Shown here in pieces: positions 7,017-47,213 of a DNA stretch of 50,272 nt. Each line of letters starts with the position of its first letter. Position 1 is the first letter of the stretch. The DNA is from a virus. Where the stretch lies: IMG/VR virus record IMGVR_UViG_3300038441_001406, positions 1-50,272 of that record; one strand, 5' to 3'. The notes beneath the pieces were generated by a model. It was given only the letters and a program-made list of their open reading frames with translations, ran no database searches and was not told the origin of the DNA. Both the position numbers and the translations under genes were made by a program.

Positions 7017-7036
7017 CCAAACAGGAGAAACATACC

Positions 7037-33091: not shown

Positions 33092-33127
33092 CGAGAACCA
33101 GCAATCAACCAGAAAGAGAAAAACAAA

Positions 33128-33376
33128 ATGAGCAACATCACCTACAAACTGAAACGCAAATCGGAAACGAATGAATGGCTCGTCGTCGCCTACGTGGACG
33201 GCAAGCGGAACGAAGACATGACCTACTACACGGACGACAAGCAGGACGCGATAGACACGCTCGCAGCGATGCAGAAGCCTGCGCTCGATCTCGAAACCAT
33301 CCCCGCTCCTTGGAAGCTCGCGCAGTTCTCCGAAGAGGATATGAGGGACGCGAGAGCGAACGCATGGATTGAATAG
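33128..33376 (+). CDS. Hypothetical protein, 82 aa
   Basis: ATG 33128 is 10 bases after AACCAGAAAGA (33107-33117). The small acidic protein has two or three predicted strands (TYKLKRKSETNEWLVVAYVDG) then helices (DKQDAIDTLAAMQ). A domain with this mix of strand and charge is common in phage early proteins. A strong hairpin follows its stop at 33381-33415. No function is known. Confidence 0.6.
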   Translation: MSNITYKLKRKSETNEWLVVAYVDGKRNEDMTYYTDDKQDAIDTLAAMQKPALDLETIPAPWKLAQFSEEDMRDARANAWIE

Positions 33377-33380
33377 TGGG

Positions 33381-33415
33381 CAGAGCGAGCAGCGTCCCCC
33401 AACGCTGCGGCTCTG
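33381..33415 (+). other. GC-rich intergenic hairpin
   Basis: CAGAGC (33381-33386) pairs with GCTCTG (33410-33415), enclosing GCAGCGT/ACGCTGC (33389-33395 with 33402-33408). It follows a stop codon by five bases and precedes the AACTAGAAAGA leader at 33452. There is no T-run. Confidence 0.7.
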
Positions 33416-33472
33416 GTCGCAATGACGCGGTCAGTAACAACAAAGCAGAGTAACTAGAAAGACAGATACAAA

Positions 33473-33826
33473 ATGAAATCAGTAATCAAGAACAGCAAAA
33501 GCAATGGCGGCGCGAAGACTCAACCGGCCAAGGTCCCGGCTAAGAAGGCCCCGGCCAAGAAAGCACCGGCTAAGCCAGCGCCGAAAAAGAAAGCAGGCAA
33601 GGGCCGCACGGCCGTCGAGTTCATGGGAAGCTCAGCGAGCGCGGTTGCTCGCGCTCTCGGCAAGATTGGGTGGGAGTCGAGCGCGGTTGTGAAAGCGCTC
33701 GCCAAGACCGCGCTGGAGCCCCGAACGATCCGCAGCTTGGTCTCACGGGGCAAGCTCGGGCTCGGCGCTGCACCGGCGGACCTGAACAAGGTGCAGCTTT
33801 CGCAACTGCGGAAGCTCGCGGCTTAA
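33473..33826 (+). CDS. Histone-H1-like basic protein, 117 aa
   Basis: ATG 33473 lies 10 bases after AACTAGAAAGA. Residues about 15-45 are a Lys/Ala/Pro tail with repeated AKKAPAK units, as in histone H1-like bacterial and phage proteins. Residues about 46-117 form a compact helical domain (TAVEFMGSSASAVARALGKIG, then AVVKALAKTALEP) like a small DNA-binding fold. DNA compaction or nucleoid binding of phage DNA is inferred. The low-complexity tail may also cause false matches, so the family is uncertain. Confidence 0.65.
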   Translation: MKSVIKNSKSNGGAKTQPAKVPAKKAPAKKAPAKPAPKKKAGKGRTAVEFMGSSASAVARALGKIGWESSAVVKALAKTALEPRTIRSLVSRGKLGLGAAPADLNKVQLSQLRKLAA

Positions 33827-33860
33827 TCCCCCGGTCTACCCCCTTAGCGGTTGGAGGCGG

Positions 33861-33898
33861 CGGCAGTCGGAGCGATCTGGCTGCCGCTTGCTCTGCCC
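33861..33898 (+). other. Intergenic inverted repeat
   Basis: Within the gap between 33826 and 33937, CGGCAG pairs with CTGCCG around a 14-base loop. It precedes the AACCAGAAAGA leader at 33917-33927. Confidence 0.45.
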
Positions 33899-33936
33899 GC
33901 ATGATGCGAAGCAGATAACCAGAAAGAACACAAACC

Positions 33937-34287
33937 ATGAAAGATAGTCAGACAATCAAGAACGAAGTGGCCGAGCACATCTCCGGGTCGGTCCTGAAGG
34001 GCTGGAAGCTCACGCAAGACGAGATCGCTTTTGCGATGCGCGTTTTGCAAGTGGTCTCTTACCGCGTGCGGAAAGAGAACGAAGATCGCTACGAAGATGA
34101 TCCGCACTTCCGCTTTTATGCGGACACGTTGCAGAGCGCTCGCAATTTCCTCTGGACCTATGGCGACCAGTTGCTGAACGAAGAGACAGTCAAGGCCGCG
34201 AAGCTCGAAAAGCTTCCTGTGAAAGTCCCAACGGTTATCCCTGAGACTCTCGGGTTGCTCTTGCTGCTCGCAATGGTTCACCCCTAA
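33937..34287 (+). CDS. Hypothetical helical protein, 116 aa
   Basis: ATG 33937 is nine bases after AACCAGAAAGA (33917-33927). The chain is predicted helical throughout: a basic/acidic N-terminus (MKDSQTIKNEVAEHISGSVL), a central IAFAMRVLQVVSYRVRKENEDR helix and a hydrophobic tail (LGLLLLLAMV) that may insert in the membrane. No family recognised. Confidence 0.6.
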   Translation: MKDSQTIKNEVAEHISGSVLKGWKLTQDEIAFAMRVLQVVSYRVRKENEDRYEDDPHFRFYADTLQSARNFLWTYGDQLLNEETVKAAKLEKLPVKVPTVIPETLGLLLLLAMVHP

Positions 34288-34319
34288 CGAAGAAAGCAAA
34301 ACCAGAAAGAAGAAAGACA

Positions 34320-34676
34320 ATGAAAATCAAAGTATGTCGAAACACCAGTAGTAAGCAATGGGGCTACGCAACGCTCCCGCCGTCTCAGAAACTTATCTGG
34401 GCCGGGCCGTTGTTCGTTCTTATCCAGCTCGGCAGATCACTCCGTGACAGCTGGTCGCTCTATTGTATGGGCTGCGGACCGAGTTGGGAGAGCGGCTACG
34501 TCAAGCCGACCATCCTCGGGTTCGCAGCAGAATGGATCATGCAAGCAACCAATCGCTTGCTCTGCCGTCTGCGCGGTCATCACTGGCATAACGAGGGCTA
34601 CGCCAATAGCGATAGCGGCGGAGAAAGCTTTCAATGTCTGCGCTGCGGTGAGTCGCATGATGTCACCTATTACTAA
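34320..34676 (+). CDS. Hypothetical protein with zinc-ribbon-like C-terminus, 118 aa
   Basis: ATG 34320 follows AACCAGAAAGA at 34300-34310. The middle is moderately hydrophobic (KLIWAGPLFVLIQLG at about residues 24-38). The C-terminal part carries Cys/His pairs: CRLRGHHWHNEG and CLRCGESH, which could bind a zinc ion. Such CxxC/HxxC arrangements occur in phage zinc-ribbon proteins. No partner or function is known. Confidence 0.6.
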   Translation: MKIKVCRNTSSKQWGYATLPPSQKLIWAGPLFVLIQLGRSLRDSWSLYCMGCGPSWESGYVKPTILGFAAEWIMQATNRLLCRLRGHHWHNEGYANSDSGGESFQCLRCGESHDVTYY

Positions 34677-34677
34677 G

Positions 34678-35079
34678 ATGAGAACCAGAAAGAGAAAGAT
34701 ACTGACCCCGAGGCTGCGCCGCTCGACGGCGAAAAAGCTGGCGGTCATTTTAGAGCAGCGAGCAGAGCAAACGCCAGAGTCGAGCGAGAAGCGCGCCCCC
34801 TCGCTGCTCAATTACGGCACCGCGCCGAAGCCGTTCTACATCGCCGTCTGCAAATACGGCTACGGCGTCGACAAGGTCGCAGCGATGGCTATACGTCTCG
34901 CTCAGACTGAAGTGGCGATCCATGCGGAGCCCTCAGCGCTGCTCGTCTATCGCTCGGATGAATACATCGAGCCGATTGGATTCAAAGCAGGAGCGCCGGT
35001 CTGGGAGAACGGAGACAAGCCGACGCTCTGCGCGCTGACGAACACGCATCAAGGCTACCGGCAGAGGATGAGGCTATGA
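34678..35079 (+). CDS. Hypothetical basic protein, 133 aa
   Basis: ATG 34678 overlaps no stop but follows the previous TAA by one base. Its own sequence begins with AACCAGAAAGA at 34683-34693, so either this start is right or the true start lies later in frame (no good ATG is seen nearby). The N-terminus is very basic (MRTRKRKILTPRLRRSTAKK). The rest is a small alpha/beta protein (FYIAVCKYGYGVDKVAAMAI). The stop overlaps the next gene (ATGA at 35076). Confidence 0.55.
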   Translation: MRTRKRKILTPRLRRSTAKKLAVILEQRAEQTPESSEKRAPSLLNYGTAPKPFYIAVCKYGYGVDKVAAMAIRLAQTEVAIHAEPSALLVYRSDEYIEPIGFKAGAPVWENGDKPTLCALTNTHQGYRQRMRL

Positions 35080-35261
35080 GGTTGAAGGTTCACTACTATA
35101 CAGCGATGACTCGAACCCCATCCGAAGCCATCCTTGAGACCCATCAATGGATAGAGATAAGAGGTCAGACGGTCCTGCGCGGTCAGCAAAAGATCAACAA
35201 GCGTTTAGTCAACCGGAGCATCGCTAAGGATGAGATCATCAAGACAGAGGAGGTCCGATGA
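35076..35261 (+). CDS. Hypothetical protein, 61 aa
   Basis: ATG 35076 lies inside the previous stop (ATGA). The small protein is basic with a strand-rich centre (KVHYYTAMTRTPSEAILETHQW). The stop overlaps the next gene (ATGA at 35258). It belongs to a chain of coupled small genes; no function visible. Confidence 0.55.
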   Translation: MRLKVHYYTAMTRTPSEAILETHQWIEIRGQTVLRGQQKINKRLVNRSIAKDEIIKTEEVR

Positions 35262-35515
35262 GTTGCGGCTCCGGCTGGATAGGGACGCACCGGCAAGTTG
35301 CCTACTATCTCAGCGTCGTCGGCGCAGACCGCGATGAGCAGGGCCGCTTTCTGATTGTCTCTGGCGGCATCTACTCGTTGTTAGGCGACACGAGAGAAGA
35401 TAGCGACGCGGTGATTGACAGTGAGACCTGCTACCTCATCGGCGGCAAGCCGGTCAATCTCGCGGCGGGACTCGGGACAACATCCTACGGGATGCGAGTC
35501 ACAGTGATAGCATAA
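35258..35515 (+). CDS. Hypothetical protein, 85 aa
   Basis: Coupled to the gene before by ATGA. The sequence is Gly/Ser/Thr-rich and strand-like (VAYYLSVVGADRDEQGRFLI, GGIYSLLGDTREDSD) with no repeats. It contains three Cys residues but no recognisable metal motif. No family identified. Confidence 0.5.
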   Translation: MSCGSGWIGTHRQVAYYLSVVGADRDEQGRFLIVSGGIYSLLGDTREDSDAVIDSETCYLIGGKPVNLAAGLGTTSYGMRVTVIA

Positions 35516-35530
35516 GCGATAACGCCGATG

Positions 35531-35574
35531 TCCGGCGTCTGTCACGCGCAACGGTTCAGCGTGGCACTGATGAG
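35531..35574 (+). other. Intergenic inverted repeats
   Basis: Between 35515 and 35611, ACGCC(GATGTCC)GGCGT and CACGC(GCAACGGTTCA)GCGTG can each form a short stem. They precede the leader AACCAGAAACA at 35580 and an AGGAGG site, so this gene has both leader types. Confidence 0.5.
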
Positions 35575-35610
35575 CAGAGAACCAGAAACAAACTAGGAGG
35601 TAAGTTAGTT

Positions 35611-36357
35611 ATGATATTGGCAGCCAAAAAGACAATGAAGATACATCCGTTTGCGCGGATGTTCAGTCAGGTCGCGCCGCTCTCGAAAGAGAAGCGCGAC
35701 GAGATGGTGAAGAGCATCGAGAAGAACGGGATACTCATTCCGATGTTGGTCAACAAGAAGAAGGATACGATCTACGACGGGGCGACCCGTTGGGGCATTG
35801 CCTACGACTTGAAGCTCAAACTCGAGGATGACCGCTTCGAGGTTTTTCCGAGCGAAGACGAGGACGATATTCGGGAAGCGATCGCGGCCCGCAACATCGA
35901 CCGGCGGCAGTTGACTGATAAAGAGCGCTCCGATCTCATCTCAAAACTCTTCGGGCCGAAGCTCGAAGAGGAAGCAAGACAGCGGCAGAGCAAGGCGGGG
36001 AGCTTCAAGGGGGCGACCAAGCTCGATGGCAAAGGCAGCGTGGCGGAGAAGATCGCGACCATGGCTGGTGTAAAAAAGAGCACAGCGCAGCAGTCAGAAA
36101 AGTTGCGCAAGGCTGGCGTGCTTGATGATGTGCTGCAAAAGAAAACAGCTCGGACGGCAGCACTCAAGAAAGCGCCGACCAGGAAAAAGGCCGCGAGCAA
36201 GTCAACGATTCCTTTTCCCGACCAGGTCTATAAGAAGTGGAGTCAGTTCGTGGCCCGCTTCCCTCACCCTGTCCGGCGCGAAGTGATCGAGCTGGTGCAT
36301 GGCTGGACGAAGCCGGGCGCGGCGGTCCCGAAGCCCTCAACTCCGGCCAAGAAGTAG
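35611..36357 (+). CDS. ParB-like nuclease-domain protein, 248 aa
   Basis: ATG 35611 has GGAGG 10-12 bases upstream plus the AACCAGAAACA leader. Residues about 5-100 are a ParB N-terminal domain: KIHPFARMFSQVAPLSKEKRDEM, then VKSIEKNGILIPMLV, then DGATRWGIAYDL. A basic/acidic middle follows (EAIAARNIDRRQLTDKERSDL), where ParB proteins have an HTH, and the C-terminus is Lys/Ala/Pro-rich (KKAPTRKKAASKST). It is a second ParB-fold protein, unlike the one next to dpdA. A role in regulation or DNA binding is likely but unproven. Confidence 0.75.
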   Translation: MILAAKKTMKIHPFARMFSQVAPLSKEKRDEMVKSIEKNGILIPMLVNKKKDTIYDGATRWGIAYDLKLKLEDDRFEVFPSEDEDDIREAIAARNIDRRQLTDKERSDLISKLFGPKLEEEARQRQSKAGSFKGATKLDGKGSVAEKIATMAGVKKSTAQQSEKLRKAGVLDDVLQKKTARTAALKKAPTRKKAASKSTIPFPDQVYKKWSQFVARFPHPVRREVIELVHGWTKPGAAVPKPSTPAKK

Positions 36358-36368
36358 GCTGGCAGAGC

Positions 36369-36421
36369 GCGAGCAGTCAGGCAGGGTTCAAGCCCCGGTC
36401 TGACTGTTCTGCTCTGCTCGC
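36369..36421 (+). other. GC-rich intergenic hairpin
   Basis: GCGAGCAG (36369-36376) pairs with CTGCTCGC (36414-36421), enclosing TCAG/CTGA (36377-36380 with 36400-36403). It follows the ParB-like gene and precedes AACCAGAAAGA at 36438. Confidence 0.7.
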
Positions 36422-36452
36422 AATCAAGCAAGCAGCTAACCAGAAAGAACAC

Positions 36453-36638
36453 ATGAACAAAATCGACCAACTGCGAATCGCTTATACCCTTCGCTTCTGC
36501 GCCCTGAGAGCGAAGCGAGCGGGATGCCGCTATCATGAGGCGGGCGTGATGATTCGGGACATCATACGCGCCCAGCAACTGCCAATGACAAACAGAGAGA
36601 TCACCACATCGATCAAGGAGGCGTATGGCCGAGCCTAA
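36453..36638 (+). CDS. Small helical protein, 61 aa
   Basis: ATG 36453 is four bases after AACCAGAAAGA (36438-36448). Longer frames upstream run through the hairpin and ParB-like gene and are rejected. The helical basic product (KIDQLRIAYTLRFCALRAKR) may bind nucleic acid, but no family is seen. The stop overlaps the next gene by 14 bases. Confidence 0.6.
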   Translation: MNKIDQLRIAYTLRFCALRAKRAGCRYHEAGVMIRDIIRAQQLPMTNREITTSIKEAYGRA

Positions 36639-36837
36639 AATGACATTCAGAAAAATGGTTCTCGGATATCACTACACCGACGGAGAGACGGTGGGTGTCT
36701 ACACAGTGGACTGCGAAAATTGCGCAACCAGCGGCGCTCATACGCAGAGACCAATGGTGCAACTTGCGGTCACGCATCAAGATTCGCAAATCATCAGGGA
36801 ATGGTTCGCGGTCGCTGACTTAAAGGAGGTCGATTAA
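36625..36837 (+). CDS. Hypothetical protein, 70 aa
   Basis: ATG 36625 has AAGGAGG upstream. A small beta-rich protein (KMVLGYHYTDGETVGVYTVDC) with two Cys at ENCATSG and DCEN that could be a tiny metal site. No family recognised. Confidence 0.55.
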   Translation: MAEPKMTFRKMVLGYHYTDGETVGVYTVDCENCATSGAHTQRPMVQLAVTHQDSQIIREWFAVADLKEVD

Positions 36838-36843
36838 ACACCC

Positions 36844-37086
36844 ATGAAGAAACTAGACTGGTCAATTATCGCGGTCGTCATCATGTTCATTGTCTATTGC
36901 CTCGCAGTGAACGCTGACGGGGCGGAGCCAAAGAAGAAAGCGCAGCGCGACCGCAATTACATCCTGCGTCGTCAGTCCGCCTATCAGGTGCAAGGTCCGC
37001 CGGTGCGCCGTCTCATCATCGGGAAGCGCGAGGTTGACATCTACCGCGACGGGAGCGCCTTCGAGAAAGACAGGAGGGCACGATGA
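36844..37086 (+). CDS. Small exported or membrane protein, 80 aa
   Basis: ATG 36844 is close to the previous stop. Residues about 5-24 (DWSIIAVVIMFIVYCLAVNA) form a membrane span or signal peptide, possibly cut after ADGA. The rest is basic (KKKAQRDRNYILRRQSAYQV). It could be a periplasmic or membrane-anchored small protein. The stop overlaps the next gene (ATGA at 37083). Confidence 0.6.
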   Translation: MKKLDWSIIAVVIMFIVYCLAVNADGAEPKKKAQRDRNYILRRQSAYQVQGPPVRRLIIGKREVDIYRDGSAFEKDRRAR

Positions 37087-37298
37087 CTGGCGAGCAGATT
37101 AAGGCGCACACGCTGGGCATCATCCGACAAGCTCTCGAAGTGCAGGACGCTCTCGATGCTGAACGGTGGACGGCAGCGCAGATGATCCTGACTGGCATCC
37201 GCACTGACAGCAAGCGCCTGCAGGAGCACTGCGCGGAAAAGGTCGAACAAATCGCGGGCAAGCTTTCAACCGCGGTCGAGCGGCATGGACGAAGATGA
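37083..37298 (+). CDS. Small helical protein, 71 aa
   Basis: Coupled by ATGA. A mostly helical sequence (HTLGIIRQALEVQDALDAER, then AAQMILTGIRTDSKRLQEH) with no Cys cluster or membrane segment. It overlaps the next gene by 14 bases. No function visible. Confidence 0.55.
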   Translation: MTGEQIKAHTLGIIRQALEVQDALDAERWTAAQMILTGIRTDSKRLQEHCAEKVEQIAGKLSTAVERHGRR

Positions 37299-37479
37299 TG
37301 ATGGGCTACCAGCAGATCAAGTGCGGCGCTGCGGCCGCTGCCGAGAAGACTTCGAAAGCATCGTGCAGCGCGGACGCCCAACCTTCGTGCCGCTCTTCTG
37401 CTCGGACTGCGATGAGATCATGGCGAACGAGCTGCAATGGCGAGAGCATCGAGAGAAGCTTAATCGAAAAACCGATTAA
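37285..37479 (+). CDS. Zinc-finger-like protein ending in hairpin repeat, 64 aa
   Basis: The product carries two Cys pairs, CGRC near residue 16 and CSDC near residue 39, suitable for one zinc ion. The final residues EKLNRKTD and the TAA stop are encoded by hairpin copy 6, reading through its left arm and loop and stopping in the right arm. Its natural end was probably near residue 57 before the repeat (inference). Confidence 0.6.
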   Translation: MDEDDDGLPADQVRRCGRCREDFESIVQRGRPTFVPLFCSDCDEIMANELQWREHREKLNRKTD

Positions 37480-37485
37480 GCTTCT
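37454..37485 (+). repeat. Dispersed hairpin repeat, copy 6
   Basis: A 13-base-pair stem (37454-37466 with 37473-37485) closes on loop AAAAAC. The upstream gene ends in its right arm (TAA 37477-37479). A 335-base non-coding segment follows. Confidence 0.95.
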
Positions 37486-37584
37486 GCTGCCCCTCGCAGC
37501 GCCAGAGGGGCAGCGCAGAGCGCAAGGGGCAAGAACGCAGCATCGAGCAGCGCAGAAATGCTCAAATCCGAGCCCAGGCGAGCC

Positions 37585-37651
37585 CCTAGGACGTTTTTCG
37601 ATAGCGAGCAATGATCTTGTAGCGCTCGCACCCATAAAAACGCTGCCTAGG
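37585..37651 (+). promoter_or_regulatory. Nested stem structure, candidate anti-terminator form
   Basis: CCTAGG (37585-37590) pairs with CCTAGG (37646-37651), CGTTTTT (37592-37598) with AAAAACG (37636-37642) and GCGAGC (37604-37609) with GCTCGC (37624-37629). Forming it would use bases needed by the terminator-like stem at 37640-37664. Confidence 0.5.
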
Positions 37652-37670
37652 CGATCCTGAGCGTCTTTTT
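37640..37670 (+). terminator. Candidate intrinsic terminator
   Basis: ACGCT (37640-37644) pairs with AGCGT (37660-37664), and CTTTTT follows at 37665-37670. The stem is short, and the loop contains GCCTAGGC, which can pair with itself. It competes with the nested stem upstream. Confidence 0.45.
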
Positions 37671-37820
37671 CTGCTCTCTCAGAGCGAAAACCCCGCTTTT
37701 CCCTCTCTGCGCGCTCTGCGCTCTCTTGCATCGAGCAGAGCAGCGCGACGCCGCAGGGGCGCTCCCAGTGCGATTTTCAACCCCTTCCAGAGCGCAACCA
37801 GAAAGAGAAAGGAAGAGAGA

Positions 37821-38168
37821 ATGAACGAAGAGCAAATCAAAGAGAGAGCGACCCGTTGGGCCGCGCTCTACCGCAATCCGAAATCGCGCCCACAGATGGA
37901 CGATGTTTTGCGCGGCTTGAATGAAGCCGGTCGAACACTGGTCATCCTCGGCGGCCAGCGGATTGCGGGTGGCCTGCCGTGGCGACTAGCAAGCCTGACA
38001 GAAAGAAAGGAGGTTGAGACAAATGGGAACAGCAATAAAACAAAAGGGCGACGACCGGCTTCCGCTACAGCTGGCGCTAAAACAGCTAAAGCGAAAGTTT
38101 CCGTGGGCGCCCATAGCAGCCCTCAGAAAACAAATCACCGCCGGACTAATGCCGGTCACAAGAAGTAG
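37821..38168 (+). CDS. Hypothetical basic protein, 115 aa
   Basis: ATG 37821 is 14 bases after AACCAGAAAGA (37796-37806). Residues 1-65 look folded (RATRWAALYRNPKSRPQMDD, LNEAGRTLVILGGQRIAGG). The last 50 residues are Lys/Ala/Ser/Thr-rich and probably disordered. The last 145 bases overlap the next gene in another frame. The disordered tail may therefore exist only because of that overlap. Confidence 0.55.
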   Translation: MNEEQIKERATRWAALYRNPKSRPQMDDVLRGLNEAGRTLVILGGQRIAGGLPWRLASLTERKEVETNGNSNKTKGRRPASATAGAKTAKAKVSVGAHSSPQKTNHRRTNAGHKK

Positions 38169-38244
38169 CTTTGCAGAGAAGAGCCGCATCTATGTGCGGA
38201 TGGAGGACCTAGAGAAATTACTCCTCAGAGCAGAAACAAAGTAA
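38023..38244 (+). CDS. Putative small DNA-binding (excisionase-like) protein, 73 aa
   Basis: ATG 38023 has the long ribosome binding site AAGAAAGGAGG just upstream, so it is favoured although it lies inside the previous gene. The sequence (FPWAPIAALRKQITAGLMP, then RIYVRMEDLEKLL) has the look of small winged-helix/excisionase domains, which end in (V)R-x-xDLE-x-L. A regulatory role is inferred. Confidence 0.6.
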   Translation: MGTAIKQKGDDRLPLQLALKQLKRKFPWAPIAALRKQITAGLMPVTRSSFAEKSRIYVRMEDLEKLLLRAETK

Positions 38245-38252
38245 GAAAAAAA

Positions 38253-38303
38253 TCGCTGGCCGCGACTGCTCCCAAATATGAAAAAGAGCGCCACGACCAG
38301 CGA
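38253..38303 (+). other. Intergenic hairpin before the ERF gene
   Basis: TCGCTGG (38253-38259) pairs with CCAGCGA (38297-38303). It follows a stop codon and precedes AACCAGAAAGA at 38309, repeating the arrangement seen at 33381 and 36369. Confidence 0.65.
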
Positions 38304-38328
38304 GAGTTAACCAGAAAGAACTATAAAC

Positions 38329-39387
38329 ATGGAAAAGAAAAGTGGTTTAGTCAAGAAGCTCATCGAGATCCTGAAAGAAGTAGGACCGATCGAGAAGGCC
38401 GAGCGCAACGCGCATTTCGGCTACAACTACACTGGCGAAGGCCAAGTATTGGCGGCGCTCCGCGGCAGACTCGCGGAGCGGAACATCCTTCTCATCACGA
38501 GCGTCTCAACCTGCGTCCCTGAGTATGGGGAAGGCGGGCATGGCGTTTATGTCTGCGTCACGACCAGGCATAAATTCATGGATGGAGAGACGGGCGAAGA
38601 GTTAGAGCTTCAAGGTGCTGGTCTCGGTTGGGACTCCGGCGATAAGGGCGTTTACAAAGCGATCACCGGCGCGGTCAAATACGTCCTGATGAAAAACTTT
38701 CTCATCACGGACGGTCAGGATCCGGAGTCGGGCGAGCAGCGCAAGCCGGCTGCTGAGCCCGGTCAAGCGCCAGCTGGCGCGCCGCACCGGCGGACGCGGG
38801 ACTATGAGAATGAGACAGGCAAGGGAGACAAAAAAGTCGAGACAGACTTCGCGGCCCTGGATGCCTTTCTGCTCGAAAATAACATCCCACAAGGGTTCGT
38901 TATCTTGAGGCTGAAAGAGAAAGGACTCATCGATGCGAGAGCGACGAAGCTCGATAACATCAAACCGGGCATCCTGAAGCGCTGCATCCAACCGGCAGCG
39001 AAGGCGACTCTGCTCAAGGCATGGGCCGATCAACAAAAAGACGATGAAGGACAGAGCGGCACTGAGACCAAGGTCGCGCCGCGCGAGAAGAAAGAAGTGC
39101 GGACCAATGAAGGCGACCAGACGCGAGCAGGAACAAGGCGGCAACCGTGCGCCGGTCAGGACCCAAAAGCGGTAGTCGAGGAAGCAGGCCACAAAAACTG
39201 GCGGACAGTCAAGATCCATTGGGGCCGAGATAAAGGAACGCCGTTAGGCAAAGTCTCGAAGAAGTCGTTAACCGGATATTGGATCAGCCAATGGCATCCC
39301 GAGTTGTATCGCAACAAATGGAATAAGGATGACGTCCTCTTGGACAGCGCGATTTGTCTGGCCAGTGAAGAGATTGGAGGTGAGTGA
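38329..39387 (+). CDS. ERF-family single-strand annealing protein, 352 aa
   Basis: ATG 38329 is nine bases after AACCAGAAAGA. Residues about 1-130 match ERF annealing proteins: IEKAERNAHFGYNYTGEGQV, LAALRGRLAERNI, then GAGLGWDSGDKGVYKAITGA followed by VKYVLMKNF, the most conserved ERF block. ERF proteins pair complementary strands in phage recombination. A charged linker (about residues 145-240) and a C-terminal module with WRTVKIHWGRDKGTPLGKVS and GYWISQWHPEL follow. The next-but-one gene encodes a PD-(D/E)XK nuclease, the usual partner. Confidence 0.85.
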   Translation: MEKKSGLVKKLIEILKEVGPIEKAERNAHFGYNYTGEGQVLAALRGRLAERNILLITSVSTCVPEYGEGGHGVYVCVTTRHKFMDGETGEELELQGAGLGWDSGDKGVYKAITGAVKYVLMKNFLITDGQDPESGEQRKPAAEPGQAPAGAPHRRTRDYENETGKGDKKVETDFAALDAFLLENNIPQGFVILRLKEKGLIDARATKLDNIKPGILKRCIQPAAKATLLKAWADQQKDDEGQSGTETKVAPREKKEVRTNEGDQTRAGTRRQPCAGQDPKAVVEEAGHKNWRTVKIHWGRDKGTPLGKVSKKSLTGYWISQWHPELYRNKWNKDDVLLDSAICLASEEIGGE

Positions 39388-39684
39388 ATGAGCGGACTAA
39401 CCTGCCGCAGTTGCGGCGCTGAAGTCATCGTCGCGCAGACATCCAATAACAAGCGGATGCCAGTCGACCGGCGAGCATCTCCGAAGGGAAATATTCTGCT
39501 GGTTCATCAACCGAACAACATCCCTCGGGCCGTGGTGATTAAAGCTGAGGCGCGGGAACGTTATGCGGGCAAGCTGCGGTTGAGTCACTTCGCCACTTGT
39601 CCGAACGCGGCGCAGCATCGGCAGCCGAAAGAAAGGAGGCATCATGGCGACCAGAAAGAAACGAGCCAGACCGGACAAGCCTAA
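39388..39684 (+). CDS. Small zinc-finger-like protein, 98 aa
   Basis: ATG 39388 starts directly after the ERF stop. CRSCGAEV near residue 6 gives one Cys pair. HFATCPNAAQH near residue 67 offers His/Cys for a second site. A region of low complexity (RRHHGDQKE) ends it. It overlaps the nuclease gene by 41 bases. No family given. Confidence 0.55.
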   Translation: MSGLTCRSCGAEVIVAQTSNNKRMPVDRRASPKGNILLVHQPNNIPRAVVIKAEARERYAGKLRLSHFATCPNAAQHRQPKERRHHGDQKETSQTGQA

Positions 39685-41208: not shown

Positions 41209-41497
41209 CAAAAAAACGATAGAGAGCGTGGCCGAAGAGATCATCGGCATCGCGACCGGAGCGTTCATCAGCGCTTATATGAAACACCGGCGCGGCGAAA
41301 GTCTTGAGGCCATCCTAATCGATCTGGATATTCGCGGGGCTTACCACTCCACGGATAAAGAGACCATGAACATCATGCGGGCGGCGAGCAAGGCGGGCGT
41401 CTCTGCGCTGAAGGCCAACCTAGGACTCGATCCGGCGCTCAAACGTTTACAGTCCAGATTGGAAGCGCGCTACCAACAGGTCTTACGCGACTTATGA
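41189..41497 (+). CDS. Hypothetical helical protein, 102 aa
   Basis: ATG 41189 overlaps the previous stop region; a longer upstream frame is rejected because it runs through that gene. The chain is basic at the N-terminus and helical (TIESVAEEIIGIATGAFISAY, YMKHRRGESLEAILIDL) and ends ALKRLQSRLEARYQQVL. No family recognised. The stop overlaps the next gene (ATGA at 41494). Confidence 0.55.
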   Translation: MRKKKPDKKTIESVAEEIIGIATGAFISAYMKHRRGESLEAILIDLDIRGAYHSTDKETMNIMRAASKAGVSALKANLGLDPALKRLQSRLEARYQQVLRDL

Positions 41498-41829
41498 GAG
41501 AGAGAAACTGGCAAGAGAAGTGGGCCGAGTATCAGCGCTCGAAAGCGCGGCCTTTGAAGCCGGGCAAGCAATGGCGCTTTACGCATCGCCTCGAGATCGA
41601 TCGGAAGCAGCGCTGGCGCTGCGCCTGCGGCTATCAACTGGGAGACGGCCGCCAGCAGTTTCTGGCGCGCTGTTCCTTATACAAGGAGGACGAAGCTTAT
41701 TCGAAAAACCGATTAAGCTTAGGCACTCATGCTAAGAAGAAACAAAAAACTGCGCCAAGTCAGCGACAGGCGAGCGCTCGAACTGGCAAAGTATCGACGG
41801 AGACGACCGATCTTTTTAGGCTTGAATAG
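41494..41829 (+). CDS. Cys-bearing protein extended by a lost stop codon in hairpin copy 7, 111 aa
   Basis: ATGA-coupled start at 41494. Residues 1-68 end YKEDEA. In other repeat copies the next codon is TAA, but here the left arm has TAT (41698-41700), so the frame runs on through the hairpin and into the next gene's coding region, adding 43 residues. The final 34 codons overlap the HNH-like gene. The original end was most likely at 41700 (68 aa). One WRCACGYQ segment suggests a Cys pair. Confidence 0.6.
   Translation: MRERNWQEKWAEYQRSKARPLKPGKQWRFTHRLEIDRKQRWRCACGYQLGDGRQQFLARCSLYKEDEAYSKNRLSLGTHAKKKQKTAPSQRQASARTGKVSTETTDLFRLE
41693..41720 (+). repeat. Dispersed hairpin repeat, copy 7 (mutated left arm)
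   Basis: A hairpin with arms 41693-41703 and 41710-41720, loop AAAAAC. The left arm has T instead of A at 41700, which breaks one stem pair and destroys the in-frame TAA stop of the upstream gene. Confidence 0.95.
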
Positions 41830-42025
41830 CATCTGTGTCGCCTGCCGAATCATGGCCGCGACTCAGATTCATCATGCGGCGGGCCGGGAGGGCTGGCGCT
41901 TGCTTTACGAACCATGGTGGCGGGCGCTCTGCCATCTCTGTCATGACTATTTCACCCGACACAAACAAGAAGCAATCGAGCGCGGCATTTCACTGCCGCG
42001 CGCAACCAGGAGACCAGAGGAATGA
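41729..42025 (+). CDS. HNH endonuclease-like protein, 98 aa
   Basis: The start is ATG 41729 behind hairpin copy 7. Motifs fit a small HNH fold: CVACRIMAATQIHHAAGREG with the H-H pair, WRALCHLCHDYFTRH with CxxCH. Such HNH proteins nick DNA and occur free in phages. The N-terminus is basic (MLRRNKKLRQVSDRRALEL). There is a chance it is an inactive relative; the catalytic His and Asn cannot be confirmed by eye. Confidence 0.7.
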   Translation: MLRRNKKLRQVSDRRALELAKYRRRRPIFLGLNSICVACRIMAATQIHHAAGREGWRLLYEPWWRALCHLCHDYFTRHKQEAIERGISLPRATRRPEE

Positions 42026-42285
42026 AAGGCAGATCGAAACACAAACCAACGACAGTCAAAGAAGTCATAAGGGAATTACGAGCCGAGCAGCGCGAGAAGC
42101 GAGGGGCAGCGTTTCAAGCGCACTGTGACGGCAATTACATCCTAGAAGATTCGCTGACTTACTCAGCATGTGCGCTTCTCTTCGCAGCGCGCTTCATCGA
42201 AAGACATAAGGTGACAGCGACGACTTTGCAGCGTGCTCTGGATGAGCAGACAGCGAGGAAAGGAGCGCTGGAACACTACCGATGA
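42022..42285 (+). CDS. Hypothetical helical protein, 87 aa
   Basis: ATGA-coupled to the HNH-like gene. Mostly helical with basic ends (TVKEVIRELRAEQREKRGAA). No family or motif identified. Confidence 0.5.
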   Translation: MKGRSKHKPTTVKEVIRELRAEQREKRGAAFQAHCDGNYILEDSLTYSACALLFAARFIERHKVTATTLQRALDEQTARKGALEHYR

Positions 42286-42695
42286 ACGAACTTTTATTTC
42301 CCTGGCAATATGCCGGGATGAGTAACACAGAGCGGACCAAAGCTTACTTAAAGCATCATGGCTGGGAGTGCGAAGTGACCGAGCGCTGGAATCCCTTTGC
42401 CAAGGTGCGACAGGACTTGTTTAAGTTCATTGACGTCCTCGCGGTGCATCCCAAGGGCAAGCTGCTCGCTTTGCAGACTTGCAGCGGTGACGGCGGCGAC
42501 CCTGCGGCGCGAGTCCGCAAGATCAAGGCAAATAAGATTGCCAAACTGCTGGCGGCACACATGGAGATCGAGGTTTGGTCATGGGCCCGGCGCGGTCCCT
42601 TGAAGCGTTTCGAGGTGCGGAAGCAATCGCTTACGGCAAAGCTTCTGCCCAAGAGATCGCTGCTACGAAAGAAGATTGAGGAAGGAGAGTGGTAA
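42282..42695 (+). CDS. Resolvase/nuclease-fold protein, 137 aa
   Basis: ATGA-coupled at 42282. The stretch DLFKFIDVLAVHPKGKLLAL at about residues 45-64, followed by QTCSGDGGDPAARVRKIKAN, resembles small PD-(D/E)XK nucleases found in phages and helpful in recombination (pattern (D)-x-x-x-(F)IDxLA ... LALQxxS). The expected Glu/Lys of the active site is partly replaced (QTCS). It may still bind DNA. Neighbouring HNH and ERF genes agree with a DNA-metabolism module. Confidence 0.65.
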   Translation: MNELLFPWQYAGMSNTERTKAYLKHHGWECEVTERWNPFAKVRQDLFKFIDVLAVHPKGKLLALQTCSGDGGDPAARVRKIKANKIAKLLAAHMEIEVWSWARRGPLKRFEVRKQSLTAKLLPKRSLLRKKIEEGEW

Positions 42696-42709
42696 CTAGA
42701 AAGGAAAAT

Positions 42710-43261
42710 ATGTCGAATGAACAACGTGAGTTAGAGCTGCCCGGGGCTCGCTATTTGCTAAAGAAAGAGAAAAGAAATGAGAGAAAGAAAGAGAAAGAAG
42801 CAAAGAGAAAGAAAGAGAGCAAAGGAAAAGAGATAGAAAAAGAAAAAGTTTTTTCGCGGGCGCGAGGCCGTGGCCGGAAAAAAGACTGGGAAGCGTCCAT
42901 TGACTATGCGGACGAAGAGTTACAAGCCGAGTGGGCTGCGTTTCAGCTAAGTCGGCACCAGATGCGAAAAGATATTACCGACATCAGTCGAGGCCGCTTT
43001 ATCATGAGGCTCAGTCGCTGGACGAAAGAGAGAGCGATCGCTGCGCTGCGTTACTCAACCGAGAATGGTTATCAAGGAATCTTTGAGCCGCCAGCAGAGC
43101 GCAGAGCAGCAATGTTAACAAAACCCAATCTGCCTTGGAGCATGCGGGAACGAAAGATCAACAAACTGAATGAGCGCAAGGCAGAGCTTATGCGAGAAGA
43201 GCAAACGCCTCGAGTTGTGGCTGAGTTGGCTCGAATCCAAACTGACCTACTAGACTTATGA
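42710..43261 (+). CDS. Lys/Glu-rich protein, 183 aa
   Basis: ATG 42710 follows AACTAGAAAGG (42694-42704) by five bases. A GTG at 42689 would start earlier. Residues about 17-55 are an extreme Lys/Glu/Arg run (EKRNERKKEKEAKRKKESK), encoded by A/G-only DNA. The remaining part is helical (ADEELQAEWAAFQLSRHQMR). The charged tract may be disordered or coiled coil. No known family. The stop overlaps the next start (ATGA). Confidence 0.6.
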   Translation: MSNEQRELELPGARYLLKKEKRNERKKEKEAKRKKESKGKEIEKEKVFSRARGRGRKKDWEASIDYADEELQAEWAAFQLSRHQMRKDITDISRGRFIMRLSRWTKERAIAALRYSTENGYQGIFEPPAERRAAMLTKPNLPWSMRERKINKLNERKAELMREEQTPRVVAELARIQTDLLDL

Positions 43262-43791
43262 AAGGCAAAATACCAGAAAGCAAAAAACATCCAATGCCGC
43301 CAGAGTTTTCCGACTGGTGGTATCCGACCAATGTCGATCCAAAGACCGGGGTCAGTATCGGCGGCCATCCCGAAGCGAGCCGCATCTGGGCGCGACCATG
43401 CCCCGATGGCTACGAGCGCCGGCGCTACGGCATCACAGCGCAGCTCGCTTGGAATTGCCAAGCATATCGGATTGAGTATGACGAATGGCTGCTCATGGGG
43501 TCGCCGCCGCTGACCTTTGAGAGCTACAGCTTGCCGCTGTCGGAACAAAAGAAGCGCTGGGCAGAAGTGACTGCGCTCTTGCGTAAGATCGGTCGGGTGG
43601 CTCCGATACATCCAAAAGAGTTGCAGGACGCCAAGCTGAGCGGCGAGCGGCGGACCTTGATTGACGTCGAAGATTTACCAGAAGAGAAAACCAACAAACC
43701 AGAAAGACCAAAAGACAATGAGCAAACAGAAGAGGAAGGATATCTCCCCGGAGACGACAGCGACATCGAGCCCATCGACTTCAGCCCTTGA
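43258..43791 (+). CDS. Hypothetical protein, 177 aa
   Basis: ATG 43258 lies in the previous stop. A leader-like ACCAGAAAGC occurs 14 bases after this ATG, and an in-frame ATG at 43294 (MPPEFSDWWYP) follows it, so that start is an alternative. The chain is rich in Trp, Pro and charged residues. The last 50 residues are acidic (KDNEQTEEEGYLPGDDSD). The next gene starts inside it. Confidence 0.55.
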   Translation: MKGKIPESKKHPMPPEFSDWWYPTNVDPKTGVSIGGHPEASRIWARPCPDGYERRRYGITAQLAWNCQAYRIEYDEWLLMGSPPLTFESYSLPLSEQKKRWAEVTALLRKIGRVAPIHPKELQDAKLSGERRTLIDVEDLPEEKTNKPERPKDNEQTEEEGYLPGDDSDIEPIDFSP

Positions 43792-43981
43792 CCTGAGCGC
43801 AAGCGACGACCCGATGGGGCTGACCGGAGCGGATCACAATTACAAGCTGCTCAACCCCGAGTGGTGCCAGTGCAGCAACGTGGACCATGACATGAGCAAG
43901 ATCGCTTACTACCGAAGCGCAGAGAGCGGGATGCACGGTTGGATGTGCACTATCTGCCGGGGGATCGTGCAAACAGGCTAA
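43718..43981 (+). CDS. Cys-pair protein nested in the end of the previous gene, 87 aa
   Basis: ATG 43718 is 10 bases after AACCAGAAAGA (43697-43707), which lies in the coding part of the previous gene, and it overlaps that gene by 74 bases. The acidic start is followed by CQCSNVDHDM and a CTICRGIVQTG end, which may form one zinc ribbon. The leader within coding DNA supports the start. No family named. Confidence 0.6.
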   Translation: MSKQKRKDISPETTATSSPSTSALDLSASDDPMGLTGADHNYKLLNPEWCQCSNVDHDMSKIAYYRSAESGMHGWMCTICRGIVQTG

Positions 43982-43986
43982 CCCCT

Positions 43987-44166
43987 ATGGCAAAACACCA
44001 CGAGAAGAAACCGGAGTTAGAGCGGCCGCTGGCAGAATACGAACGAGCCTACAAGGCAGCGGAGCGCCGCTTCAACGAGACCGGCAGCTCAGCCGCTCAC
44101 AAAGAGATGTTACAAACCTTCGCCGATTGGAGGGCCGCAGCTTATGGCAAAAGATTACCCGTTTGA
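43987..44166 (+). CDS. Small helical protein, 59 aa
   Basis: ATG 43987 is chosen close to the previous stop. A helical, charged protein (LERPLAEYERAYKAAERRFN) that overlaps the YkgJ-like gene by 23 bases. No motif found. Confidence 0.5.
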   Translation: MAKHHEKKPELERPLAEYERAYKAAERRFNETGSSAAHKEMLQTFADWRAAAYGKRLPV

Positions 44167-44629
44167 GCGCAGCACCTGCGCCTGCCGGGAGTGCGTCCGC
44201 TGCTGTCATCGGCAGCCTGGTCCACTCGACAACAAGGACTTCGAAGAGATCGTTCGACATATCGCCAAAAAGCAAGGAGCGAGCCTCGAAGTTGCTTTTC
44301 AATGGGTCAAAAGCCGACTTTGCGCCAGTCCCGGTGCGGTCGTGCGAATGCCGGGCGGCGCGGTCATGCGGATTGGCTCGATTACCCCGCAGATGCGAAA
44401 GCGGAGCGACGGCGTGCGCTGCTGCGTCTTTCTCGATGAGAACGACCGCTGCACGATTCACGAAGTCTCGCCCTTCGGTTGCCGGATGTTCGATACCCAC
44501 ATGGATGGCAAGCGCGCCATGCCGCGATCAATCGCGCTGGCCCGAGCGCAGTTGGATCCGGAATACAAAGCGCTGCGGGACACACTGCCCTACGCCCAGA
44601 GTTACAGGCCGCAGAGATACCAAGCTTAA
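44144..44629 (+). CDS. YkgJ-like Cys-cluster protein, 161 aa
   Basis: The product has the YkgJ family layout: CACRECVRCCHRQPGPLDNK near residues 12-31 and CCVFLDENDRCTIHEVSPFG followed by CRMF near residues 93-115, with conserved Cys that bind zinc or an iron-sulfur cluster. The family is widespread in bacteria and known in phages, with no clear function. The TAA stop lies in the left arm of hairpin copy 8. ATG 44144 is inside the previous gene. Confidence 0.75.
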   Translation: MAKDYPFERSTCACRECVRCCHRQPGPLDNKDFEEIVRHIAKKQGASLEVAFQWVKSRLCASPGAVVRMPGGAVMRIGSITPQMRKRSDGVRCCVFLDENDRCTIHEVSPFGCRMFDTHMDGKRAMPRSIALARAQLDPEYKALRDTLPYAQSYRPQRYQA

Positions 44630-44649
44630 TCGAAAAACCGATTAAGCTT
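44622..44649 (+). repeat. Dispersed hairpin repeat, copy 8
   Basis: An 11-base-pair stem (44622-44632 with 44639-44649) closes on AAAAAC. Its left arm supplies the TAA stop of the upstream gene, and the next ATG follows three bases after the right arm. Confidence 0.95.
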
Positions 44650-44651
44650 CT

Positions 44652-44888
44652 ATGAGCAAAGCGACCAGAGCACTGAGGCAGGAACAATTGCGCCGCTTAG
44701 CGGAAGAGGCGGGCTGCGCCATCCAGCATGACTGCGGCGGTTATAGAGTCGTGCGCGAGATCGAGGGCGGCTGGCGCTACCTTTATCCGAACAGCGGCAT
44801 CTGTCCGACGCAACCGCGAAAAGCTTGCGAAGCCTTCCTGCTCGGGATGCTCTGCGAGCGGCGCGAGAGAAAGGAACAAAAACCATGA
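44652..44888 (+). CDS. Hypothetical protein, 78 aa
   Basis: ATG 44652 lies directly behind hairpin copy 8, so the ribosome binding site would be inside the repeat. The small protein has three or four Cys (EEAGCAIQHDCGGY, SGICPTQPRKACEAF). No family is recognised. The stop overlaps the next gene (ATGA at 44885). Confidence 0.55.
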   Translation: MSKATRALRQEQLRRLAEEAGCAIQHDCGGYRVVREIEGGWRYLYPNSGICPTQPRKACEAFLLGMLCERRERKEQKP

Positions 44889-45175
44889 TTGCAACCATAA
44901 CGAAGCTACTAGAGCAAAAATACGGCAACGGAGCAGAATATGTCCGCGTCACGTTTGCGGTCGCGGAGAGCATTGGCGAGAAAACGAGATGGGCCAAGAC
45001 AGACCTATGTCCGACCTATCGGAACTGGCATTACTGGAAAGACCGTCTCGAAGTCGGCGCGCAATTCATTGTCCGGATGAAAGACGACACGACAGTCGAT
45101 GCAGATTGGCGTCCGAAATATCTCGGCCAGAAACCGCCGCCCCCGCCCGATCCGCAATTAGGACTTTTCCCCTAG
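44885..45175 (+). CDS. Hypothetical protein, 96 aa
   Basis: ATGA-coupled at 44885; longer upstream frames are shadows. A compact alpha/beta protein (VRVTFAVAESIGEKTRWAKT, VGAQFIVRMKDDTTVD) with a Pro-rich tail (QKPPPPPDPQLGLFP). The tail ends QLGLFP, similar to clamp-binding Q-x-x-(L/I)-x-(L/F)-F peptides, so sliding-clamp binding is a possibility only. Confidence 0.55.
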   Translation: MIATITKLLEQKYGNGAEYVRVTFAVAESIGEKTRWAKTDLCPTYRNWHYWKDRLEVGAQFIVRMKDDTTVDADWRPKYLGQKPPPPPDPQLGLFP

Positions 45176-45227
45176 GACATAAAAACAAAACCGGAGCAAC
45201 ACGCTCCATAACTAGAAAGAAAAAAGA

Positions 45228-45920
45228 ATGAGATACATGATAGGAATAATCGCACTCTGTCTGAGTGCAACGGCATGGGCCGATACGTTCACAGGAACAG
45301 TGAATAAGTCAGCCGGGGGTGGAACATCGACCACCGCCTCGACTACGAGCACGACTGATGATTGCGTTATACTCAAGGGCACGTCTCTTGGCACGACAGT
45401 CATCAAGGCCTGCCGAGGGTCTCACCAAACCTATGCAGATGACGGTTCACTGGTAGGCACGGTGACCAAAACCGGAGGCAGCGGCGGAGGCGACCCGGGC
45501 GGTAAACACCAGAACGGTCCTGTAACCAGAGTCCGGCACATTCTGGATATGGGCGACGGTTCAGAGCCAGTAGGTATTCCTGACTGGCTTTTTGTCACCA
45601 AGGGTGATCCGAGAATCAGCGATGGTATCCATCCTTGGTCGCAGTTACATGAGATCAATGGCTGGTGGGTGTTACCTGATGGCTTCATGCTTCCCGATGG
45701 CACCACTCCCACTGGCATCACCTTCCATTGGTATAACACCATTACCAACTCCGAGGGCATATACGTTTGGGCCAACCCACTGGCAACGGGTGAGATTTGG
45801 TTCTATGGCAACGATACGGCAGGCTTCACCCTGTATAGTTACGATGTTCACATGGGCGTGTTCAGCATGGGCGGTAAAATGCCGCAAAAGAACCCGCAGG
45901 TGATGAGAGCACTGCCCTAA
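45228..45920 (+). CDS. Exported protein of unknown function, 230 aa
   Basis: ATG 45228 is seven bases after AACTAGAAAGA. Residues 1-18 are a signal peptide (MRYMIGIIALCLSATAWA, cut before D19). A Ser/Thr/Gly-rich linker (TASTTSTTDD, GGSGGGDPGG) is followed by a beta-rich domain (about residues 105-225) with WWVLPDGFMLPDGT and YDVHMGVFSMGG strands. It should act outside the cytoplasm, possibly on the cell envelope. No family recognised. Confidence 0.6.
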   Translation: MRYMIGIIALCLSATAWADTFTGTVNKSAGGGTSTTASTTSTTDDCVILKGTSLGTTVIKACRGSHQTYADDGSLVGTVTKTGGSGGGDPGGKHQNGPVTRVRHILDMGDGSEPVGIPDWLFVTKGDPRISDGIHPWSQLHEINGWWVLPDGFMLPDGTTPTGITFHWYNTITNSEGIYVWANPLATGEIWFYGNDTAGFTLYSYDVHMGVFSMGGKMPQKNPQVMRALP

Positions 45921-45932
45921 CTAGGACTCGTG

Positions 45933-45961
45933 GCCTGTGCCCCCACTCGCTCCACACAGGC
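45933..45961 (+). other. Intergenic hairpin
   Basis: GCCTGTG (45933-45939) pairs with CACAGGC (45955-45961), just after the stop of the exported-protein gene. No T-run follows. Confidence 0.6.
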
Positions 45962-45977
45962 TGCTAACCCATAAACA

Positions 45978-46190
45978 ATGAAACTAACAATGGGACAAAC
46001 AATAGTAGCATCGCTCATGATCGGCTTAGGAATCGGCCTTTTACTTGGCTTATATGTCGGCCAATACAAGCCAAGCAAGCCGACCGGAGTAAGGATAGAC
46101 AAGGCGGAAACGTGGGTGCCGCGTTACCGAATAGAGCAGCCAAGGCCGAAACCTTCACCTTACCCATCCCCAACCAGAAGGCCGCTCTAA
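45978..46190 (+). CDS. Small membrane protein, 70 aa
   Basis: ATG 45978 follows the hairpin. Residues about 6-28 are one membrane span (GQTIVASLMIGLGIGLLLGL), then a basic Pro-rich tail (RPKPSPYPSPTRRPL). It may anchor in the inner membrane. It ends two bases before the next start. No family named. Confidence 0.55.
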   Translation: MKLTMGQTIVASLMIGLGIGLLLGLYVGQYKPSKPTGVRIDKAETWVPRYRIEQPRPKPSPYPSPTRRPL

Positions 46191-46192
46191 CT

Positions 46193-46363
46193 ATGGCAAA
46201 CATCGAGACAGACCATGAGGAGATCGAGCACGGGGATTTGGTTAGGCGCAAACGATTGCTCCTAACCGCCCTGCGCGTTTGGGAATTGAAAAACGGCATT
46301 AACCAGCCTAACCACGACAGACTTAATCCCCTTGGACTACCAAGAAGAAAACGCAAGCCTTAG
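46193..46363 (+). CDS. Small hypothetical protein, 56 aa
   Basis: ATG 46193 comes directly after the membrane protein stop. The product is charged and helical (ETDHEEIEHGDLVRRKRLLL). The following gene's leader starts 11 bases after its stop. No motif found. Confidence 0.5.
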   Translation: MANIETDHEEIEHGDLVRRKRLLLTALRVWELKNGINQPNHDRLNPLGLPRRKRKP

Positions 46364-46392
46364 TGGCTTGCCTAACCAGAAAGAAAAAACCA

Positions 46393-46614
46393 ATGAAAAC
46401 AGTGAATGAACTGCGCGAGATGCTTAGTGAACAGCTCGACGCGATCAAGAACGGCACCACCACGGTGCAGAAAGCGCAGACGGTGGCAAACATCGTCGGA
46501 AAATTCCTGCACACCATCCGGTTACAGATGGACTATGTGAAGATGAAGCAAACCGTGGGCGGGAGTTTCCACATCCCGGCTTTGGATGACAAAGAGGAAA
46601 TCAAGCAGGCGTGA
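46393..46614 (+). CDS. Hypothetical helical protein, 73 aa
   Basis: ATG 46393 is eight bases after AACCAGAAAGA (46374-46384). Helical (VNELREMLSEQLDAIKNG, TVANIVGKFLHTIRLQM). Small phage proteins of this type often bind DNA or regulate, but no family is seen. The stop overlaps a GTG start (46611). Confidence 0.6.
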   Translation: MKTVNELREMLSEQLDAIKNGTTTVQKAQTVANIVGKFLHTIRLQMDYVKMKQTVGGSFHIPALDDKEEIKQA

Positions 46615-47213
46615 GAAGAAAGGGAGCGTCGCCGTCCTTATGGCTAACCGAGAAGGCGCGGAAACGAGTGGTTAGTTTGCGACGGCGGCGCTACCGCTCA
46701 CAAGAAGCGGAGGTGCGGGCCTACTATCGGCATGTCTGCAAGATCGGCTGGTATGAGCCAATGCAGAAAATACCGGCAAAGAACTTCACCGGCTGGTGCT
46801 TCGCGGCTGAGGGTGACTTCGTCTACCTGCGTCCAGCTTGTCAGGGTTACCGCAATGGTTATCCAGTGCACCATAGCCGGAGCGGCAATAGCCGAGTGAC
46901 TTTGATTGAATCGGCATGGATCGCGCAAAGTGAGGAAGCTTGGGCAAAACGATTCGTGAAAAAGTTTCACGAGCGGGCTGATGAATACGACCGCCAGTTG
47001 AAGCGCTACGACAAGCGGGGCCGCATTATAGAGTTGTTGATTAAGAAACGTTGGCGGCGCTATGGGGCAAGCTTTCGGGCAAACTTTCGCGGAACCGAGA
47101 TCAACATTGAGGAATTACCCAACGCCGTTTTGCAGTTAGCAGAAGAGTTGACCGCCCTCAGAACAGCGATAAGGAAAGTAACCAAAAAACCAGAAAGGAA
47201 ACAGATAGTATGA
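46611..47213 (+). CDS. Hypothetical basic protein, 200 aa
   Basis: The GTG at 46611 lies in the previous stop (GTGA). The protein is strongly basic (RRKGASPSLWLTEKARKRVV, SLRRRRYRSQEAEVRAYYRH) and contains CFAAEGDFVYLRPACQG. A nucleic-acid-binding role is possible. The stop overlaps the DUF932 gene (ATGA at 47210). Confidence 0.55.
   Translation: MRRKGASPSLWLTEKARKRVVSLRRRRYRSQEAEVRAYYRHVCKIGWYEPMQKIPAKNFTGWCFAAEGDFVYLRPACQGYRNGYPVHHSRSGNSRVTLIESAWIAQSEEAWAKRFVKKFHERADEYDRQLKRYDKRGRIIELLIKKRWRRYGASFRANFRGTEINIEELPNAVLQLAEELTALRTAIRKVTKKPERKQIV

Follow-up and report, generated by a model that had tools for sequence, protein, structure and literature searches.

The DNA analysed here, hereafter the window, is a virus record of 50,272 bases (IMG/VR record IMGVR_UViG_3300038441_001406) in which a ten-letter leader, AAC[CT]AGAAAG, is repeated ahead of gene starts in the right part. 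The left part of the window encodes myovirus tail proteins, among them sheath, tape measure, a P2-like tail protein and baseplate, and the right part holds non-virion genes, including those for an ERF recombinase, an exonuclease, a ParB-like protein and an HNH endonuclease, alongside many genes without a match. We refer to the right-hand genes as early and to the virion genes as late; judged from gene position, the leader genes would be expressed early or in the middle of infection. Gene starts were picked by hand from mechanically derived open reading frames (ORFs) and not by a gene caller, with 36 early and 27 late starts used for motif-match and GGAG counts and 41 early and 29 late starts used for exact leaders, gaps and energies. 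The leader sites and related strings are listed below by position, strand, element and place (aa, amino acids; nt, nucleotides; SD, Shine-Dalgarno sequence).

33107..33116, +, leader AACCAGAAAG, before ORF 33128-33376 (82 aa)
33452..33461, +, leader AACTAGAAAG, before ORF 33473-33826 (117 aa)
33917..33926, +, leader AACCAGAAAG, before ORF 33937-34287 (116 aa)
34300..34309, +, leader AACCAGAAAG, before ORF 34320-34676 (118 aa)
34683..34692, +, motif copy, probably no leader, inside ORF 34678-35079 just past its ATG
35580..35589, +, degenerate copy AACCAGAAAC (reads AACCAGAAACA), 21 nt from ATG 35611 with GGAGG between
36438..36447, +, leader AACCAGAAAG, before ORF 36453-36638 (61 aa)
37796..37805, +, leader AACCAGAAAG, before ORF 37821-38168 (115 aa); second GAAAGG at 37807
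38309..38318, +, leader AACCAGAAAG, before ORF 38329-39387 (352 aa, ERF recombinase)
42694..42703, +, leader AACTAGAAAG, before ORF 42710-43261 (183 aa)
43697..43706, +, leader AACCAGAAAG, before ORF 43718-43981 (87 aa), within the 3' part of ORF 43258-43791
45210..45219, +, leader AACTAGAAAG, before ORF 45228-45920 (230 aa)
46172..46181, +, near copy AACCAGAAGG, before ORF 46193-46363 (56 aa); overlooked in an earlier list
46374..46383, +, leader AACCAGAAAG, before ORF 46393-46614 (73 aa)
47188..47197, +, leader AACCAGAAAG, before ORF 47210-48265 (351 aa, phrog_1362), within the 3' end of ORF 46611-47213
48335..48347, +, split form AACCAACAGAAAG, before ORF 48357-49211 (284 aa)
2546..2556, +, AACC with another SD (AACCATAGGAG), before tail sheath gene 2566-4065
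7015..7027, +, AACC with another SD (AACCAAACAGGAG), before virion-region gene 7037-7462

The window contains 14 copies of AAC[CT]AGAAAG on the plus strand and none on the minus strand. Thirteen of them lie at 33.1-47.2 kb and one, at 17649, is inside a 2289-aa virion ORF; for 33.1-47.2 kb, 300 dinucleotide shuffles yielded a mean of 0.07 copies and a maximum of 2. A sequence-only reading of the window had listed 14 leader places, all of which do carry the motif or a near copy, nine of them in the exact form AACCAGAAAGA; the AACTAG variant occurs at 33452, 42694 and 45210, and a final G at 42694 and 47188. One listed place, 34683, precedes no start, and its assignment to a CTG start at 34702 was set aside, the copy lying just after the ATG of ORF 34678-35079, although the CTG is itself a possible start. 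An ATG follows 12 of the 13 early copies at a distance of 15-25 nt; when the ATG had to open an ORF of 50 aa or more and lie 14-26 nt downstream, the count was again 12 of 13 copies, compared to a background of 9.4% of positions (p ~5e-12). The leader ends 5-15 nt, mostly 8-12 nt, from the start codon, and the earlier estimate of mostly 4-14 bases does not fit the degenerate copy at 35580. Furthermore, the match to the motif is discrete: 12 of the 36 early starts match at all ten letters, one at nine and the others at eight or fewer, and all 27 late starts match at eight or fewer. The flanks of the ten-mer in the 12 leaders are unconserved apart from a T just before it (7/12) and A-richness after it, the ten letters themselves being invariant in this comparison by selection of the sites.

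The genes served by the leader are non-structural and encode proteins of 61-352 aa; with the ERF recombinase and a 351-aa protein among them, the statement that the leader stands before small genes only was too strong. The exact form precedes none of the 29 late starts, as had been supposed, but the tail sheath gene and gene 7037 are preceded by AACC joined to another SD. Virion genes had also been said to use GGAG instead, which is partly true, GGAG lying near 6 of 27 late starts and near 13 of 36 early ones. An upstream gap of at least 10 nt was present for 10 of 12 leader genes compared to 8 of 29 other early genes (p=0.0017), most of which abut or overlap their neighbour, and among genes with such a gap the exact leader was carried by 10 of 18 early genes and by 0 of 10 late ones (p=0.004). 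Thus, the leader marks uncoupled non-structural genes. Copies sit both between genes and within the end of an upstream ORF (43697, 47188), each near a start, and this placement fits a role in translation better than one in transcription.

The AGAAAG half has the properties of an SD. Across 16 related contigs, which like all relatives used here are metagenomic fragments, GGAGG peaks about 4-11 nt before the ATG and AGAAAG about 7-14 nt before it; this shift of about 3-4 nt is close to the 4 nt predicted for pairing with CCUCC versus CUUUCU. Because AGAAAG sits farther from the ATG by this distance, where a CUUUCU tail would bind, complementarity and spacing both argue that AGAAAG is an SD and would pair with a long 16S tail at its CUUUCU end, as the sequence-only reading had proposed. 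The computed duplex energy of the leader is -7.1 kcal/mol with the tail CUCCUUUCU and -3.2 kcal/mol with an E. coli-like tail, the UUUCU end being needed. This pairing is modest, other early genes averaging -8.4 kcal/mol.

Conservation of AAC[CT] goes beyond 16S pairing, a point on which the earlier reading was borne out: these letters precede 12 of 24 AGAAAG sites that have a start and 2 of 32 that do not. AACYAGAAAG was found in 4 of 25 related records, in one copy each and repeated in none; in other viral contigs 96 stretches fit TAACCAGAAAGA N7-10 ATGA, and 0 of the 80 fetched held two AACYAGAAAG copies on one strand. Orthologues carry other leaders, the exonuclease gene at 39644 having GAAAGGAGG forms in three relatives (G004, G002, G011) and several relatives of the 47210 protein having A/C-rich leaders with AAGGAGG or GAAAGG. 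In the 16 contigs, the top-ranking 4-mers within the 10 nt upstream of SDs that have a start were ACAA, AACA, CAAC, CAAA, AAAC, ACCA and AACC. ACAA was present before 59 of 362 such SDs compared to 24 of 752 SD-like strings without a start, and AACC before 41 of 362 compared to 25 of 752, in counts from which only identical sites were dropped and in which G005/G015 and G007/G012 look near-duplicate. Similarly, 17 of 93 GAAAGG strings with a start had AACCA within the 14 nt preceding them, compared to 2 of 274 without a start, in the relatives, where the distance from AACC to the SD varies (AACCAAGGAGG, AACCAACAGAAAGG). Since the relatives show varied A/C leaders and AACC in the window precedes other SDs too, an A/C-rich stretch before the SD is a habit of the family, and the exact, abutting AAC[CT]AGAAAG is private to the window phage among the sequences compared.

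The explanation that we favour, and regard as probable, is that the leader is an SD combined with an A/C enhancer whose spelling has become fixed in the window phage and which is used by uncoupled non-structural genes. The leader would then be a two-part translation-initiation module in which AGAAAG acts as the SD, pairing with a long 16S tail through its terminal CUUUCU, and AAC[CT], abutting it on the 5' side, would be this phage's fixed spelling of the A/C-rich enhancer of its relatives. The A/C stretch would prevent folding of the site and may make contact with ribosomal components such as protein S1, as ACA enhancers may in enteric bacteria, and the module would give each of these mainly non-structural, translationally uncoupled genes its own initiation site. 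According to the report on those enhancers (PMC3879156), translation in enteric bacteria is increased by ACA motifs just upstream of the SD (yifK, dppA), in some cases more than tenfold, and strict positioning is not needed. The leader is similar in that an A/C-rich element abuts the SD upstream and its relatives are enriched in ACAA, AACA and CAAC. In contrast to the ACA motifs, it has AACC, with no ACA in the ten-mer, and both its spelling and its spacing are fixed. A role as enhancer is proposed here by analogy.

Several results weigh against this explanation. A loose enhancer leaves the fixed spelling unaccounted for: the column composition of the relatives predicts AAC[CT] at about 0.5 of 24 AGAAAG starts, whereas 12 were observed, and the 29 other SD sites of the window show weak A/C enrichment upstream (best p 0.06). 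Pairing is not maximised, as 10 of 12 leaders have A after AGAAAG instead of the G that would lengthen it, and the energies of most leaders cluster around -5.6 kcal/mol, compared to -10 kcal/mol or better at 12 of the 29 other early starts. The CUUUCU tail of the host is itself assumed. Finally, the lower predicted folding at leader starts (minimum free energy of 60 nt, -2.3 for the 12 leader genes and -8.8 for 43 others) speaks for the explanation, but with some circularity, since A/C-richness is a property of the leader's own letters.

The fixed spelling, left over by an enhancer, is the best argument for a dedicated trans-acting factor, a phage or host RNA-binding protein or a small RNA, that would bind the leader and co-switch the non-virion gene set at translation. 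Such a factor, which we consider possible but doubtful, would suit the near-identity of the ten-mers, with C/T variation at one place only, their discreteness as a class, the excess over the A/C bias of the family and the lack of the exact form at late starts. However, no candidate emerged for the phage-encoded translation factor or regulator that had been suggested: PHROGs and Pfam scans of the early proteins picked out none with an RNA-binding or translational role, though most of these proteins match nothing. With regard to a small RNA, every occurrence of the complement TYTTTYTGGTT (wobble allowed) in the window is the reverse strand of a leader site, and no known RNA family reached its gathering score. 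Because AACC with other SDs stands before virion-region genes, outside the leader set, and A/C-rich stretches are common in relatives, a special factor is not required. More tentatively still, a phage or host factor might read AAC[CT] beside a deliberately weak SD and thereby time about a dozen non-virion genes as a private translational regulon.

The remaining rivals would account for the AAC[CT] letters by longer pairing, by transcription or by descent. If the host 16S tail extended further (CCUCCUUUCUGGUU), AACC might pair with it to form one long anti-SD helix, in which the wobble-compatible AACT would keep a G-U pair; by construction, the whole leader would pair with such a tail at -14.5 kcal/mol. 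However, GGATCACCTCCTTTCTGGTT was found in two stretches of the genome collection, both in the wrong context and neither in a genome with a 16S match, and no true 16S gene ending in CCTCCTTTCT-GGTT was found in that collection, in which 16S is missing from many metagenome-assembled genomes and the host may not be represented. A control search for GGATCACCTCCTTTCT in one phylum hit 38 of 144 genomes, and 27 of the 30 loci read were true 16S ends, continuing in AAGG (23) or TAGG (4). Moreover, AACC cannot pair with the tail in one register, since its distance to the SD varies in relatives, and a survey of 6457 organisms (PMC10783764) reports that, few exceptions apart, the unstructured 16S end of bacteria measures 15 nt, which speaks against a long extra tail. 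A longer tail ending in GGUU was rejected as a likely cause after the genome-collection scan, and we hold pairing of this kind to be highly improbable. It is very unlikely, too, that the motif is part of a phage-specific promoter that lies near starts by chance: most copies are intergenic and other repeats of the phage family, such as palindromes and the TTGACT-like repeats of relative G009, may be transcriptional, but the motif keeps a tight distance from the ATG, in overlapping gene pairs the copy lies within the upstream ORF (43697, 47188), the ten-mer has no conserved flanking letters and AGAAAG is an SD complement. At 32-50 kb, 3 sigma-70-like promoters were predicted compared to 6.6 in shuffles. 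Recent spread of a gene cassette with its own leader, so that conservation would reflect ancestry and not function, is extremely unlikely. The first 30 nt of leader genes are somewhat alike (0.395 identical vs 0.341, sd 0.013, in controls), but the 12 leader proteins share no similarity at E up to 0.1 and the 20 nt upstream are near controls (0.273 vs 0.254, sd 0.011), and cassette duplication was rejected on these grounds.

We also compared the leader with start-associated sequences (SAS), which the papers found describe, without known function, from two groups of actinobacterial phages, the Cluster K mycobacteriophages (PMC3203893) and, as a second set, the Cluster EF Microbacterium phages (PMC7302621). 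In Cluster K, whose SAS are the closest precedent, they occur in 11-19 copies of 13 letters with the consensus GGGATAGGAGCCC around an AGGAG core, typically 3-7 bp from the start; about half are linked to 17-bp inverted repeats (extended SAS, ESAS), they are shared by phages of the cluster, and they hold extra conserved letters without an rRNA partner, for which the authors leave a factor open (PMC3203893). Like SAS (10-19 copies), the leader is a short asymmetric repeat at the ribosome-binding site, nearly all in one orientation, that combines an SD with extra letters. Its copy number and strand bias agree with those of Cluster K at ten letters instead of 13, as do its confinement to gene starts of the non-structural half (12/13 early copies), save for the copy at 17649 in a virion gene, and its conservation past 16S pairing. 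In contrast, its letters, with AGAAAG as SD part, are unrelated to GGGATAGGAGCCC or GGGAAAGGACCCC, its spacing is wider, none of the window's nine palindromes lies directly upstream of a leader copy, and it is not common to relatives. For these four reasons, we do not file the leader as an SAS despite the SAS-like layout. A literature search for further repeated phage start motifs found none. A report on Staphylococcus aureus (PMC13009471) describes extended SD pairing past the core, which the leader shares, at the start-proximal side, whereas leader pairing would involve CUUUCU at the tail's 3' terminus and lie farther from the start codon. That a P2-like myovirus family contains an SAS look-alike whose letters are unrelated suggests a repeated origin of over-conserved start leaders, and because the relatives show the looser form of A/C stretch plus SD, the family offers a natural series for the role of the extra conserved letters.

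Searches for the surroundings of this phage gave 61 IMG/VR loci with relatives of the tail sheath and no close DNA relative of the window in the phage collection. One tail protein matched phages of many hosts, at below 35% identity among the matches listed, and a second had no matches. The early proteins led to one contig (ERF) and six loci (gene 47210), and no closer relatives were found with 39644, 33128 or 45228. Among prophages, 49 genome stretches fit the search pattern for a host, and none encoded a relative.

Other repeats were observed in the window and its relatives. Proline/threonine-rich coding repeats (ACNCCNACNCC) occupy 18561-20660 of the window, within the 2289-aa virion ORF, and recur at 48761-48833 within the 284-aa ORF 48357-49211. 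A palindrome, AAGCTTAATCG-AAAAAN-CGATTAAGCTT, has nine copies (5, 4068, 11156, 26449, 32119, 37456, 41693, 44622 and 49792), mostly at gene boundaries; because the copies at 4068 and 41693 break the stem without compensation, a DNA site is hinted at over an RNA hairpin. Four relatives (G002, G011, G022 and G023) have different dispersed palindromes of their own that often lie beside gene starts (AAGCTTATCACCAAACGCAGATAAGCTT, CTTATATTGAATTCAATATAAG, ACTTATCTTGAAATCAAGATAAGT, GGTTATATCGAATTCGATATAACC), and our guess is that these are fast-changing operator sites of a phage regulator. Promoter-like repeats precede ATGs in G009 (minus strand, 6 copies) and G001 (plus strand, 7 copies) (CTTGACTC-TTTTTCTACTTGTGCAAT; GGTTAATTAAATTTAGTCAAAGCTT). 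Finally, genes for QueC, PTPS (QueD-like), GTP cyclohydrolase I and a relative of tRNA-ribosyltransferase adjoin each other at 27867-32126, a cluster that we take to serve 7-deazaguanine DNA modification.

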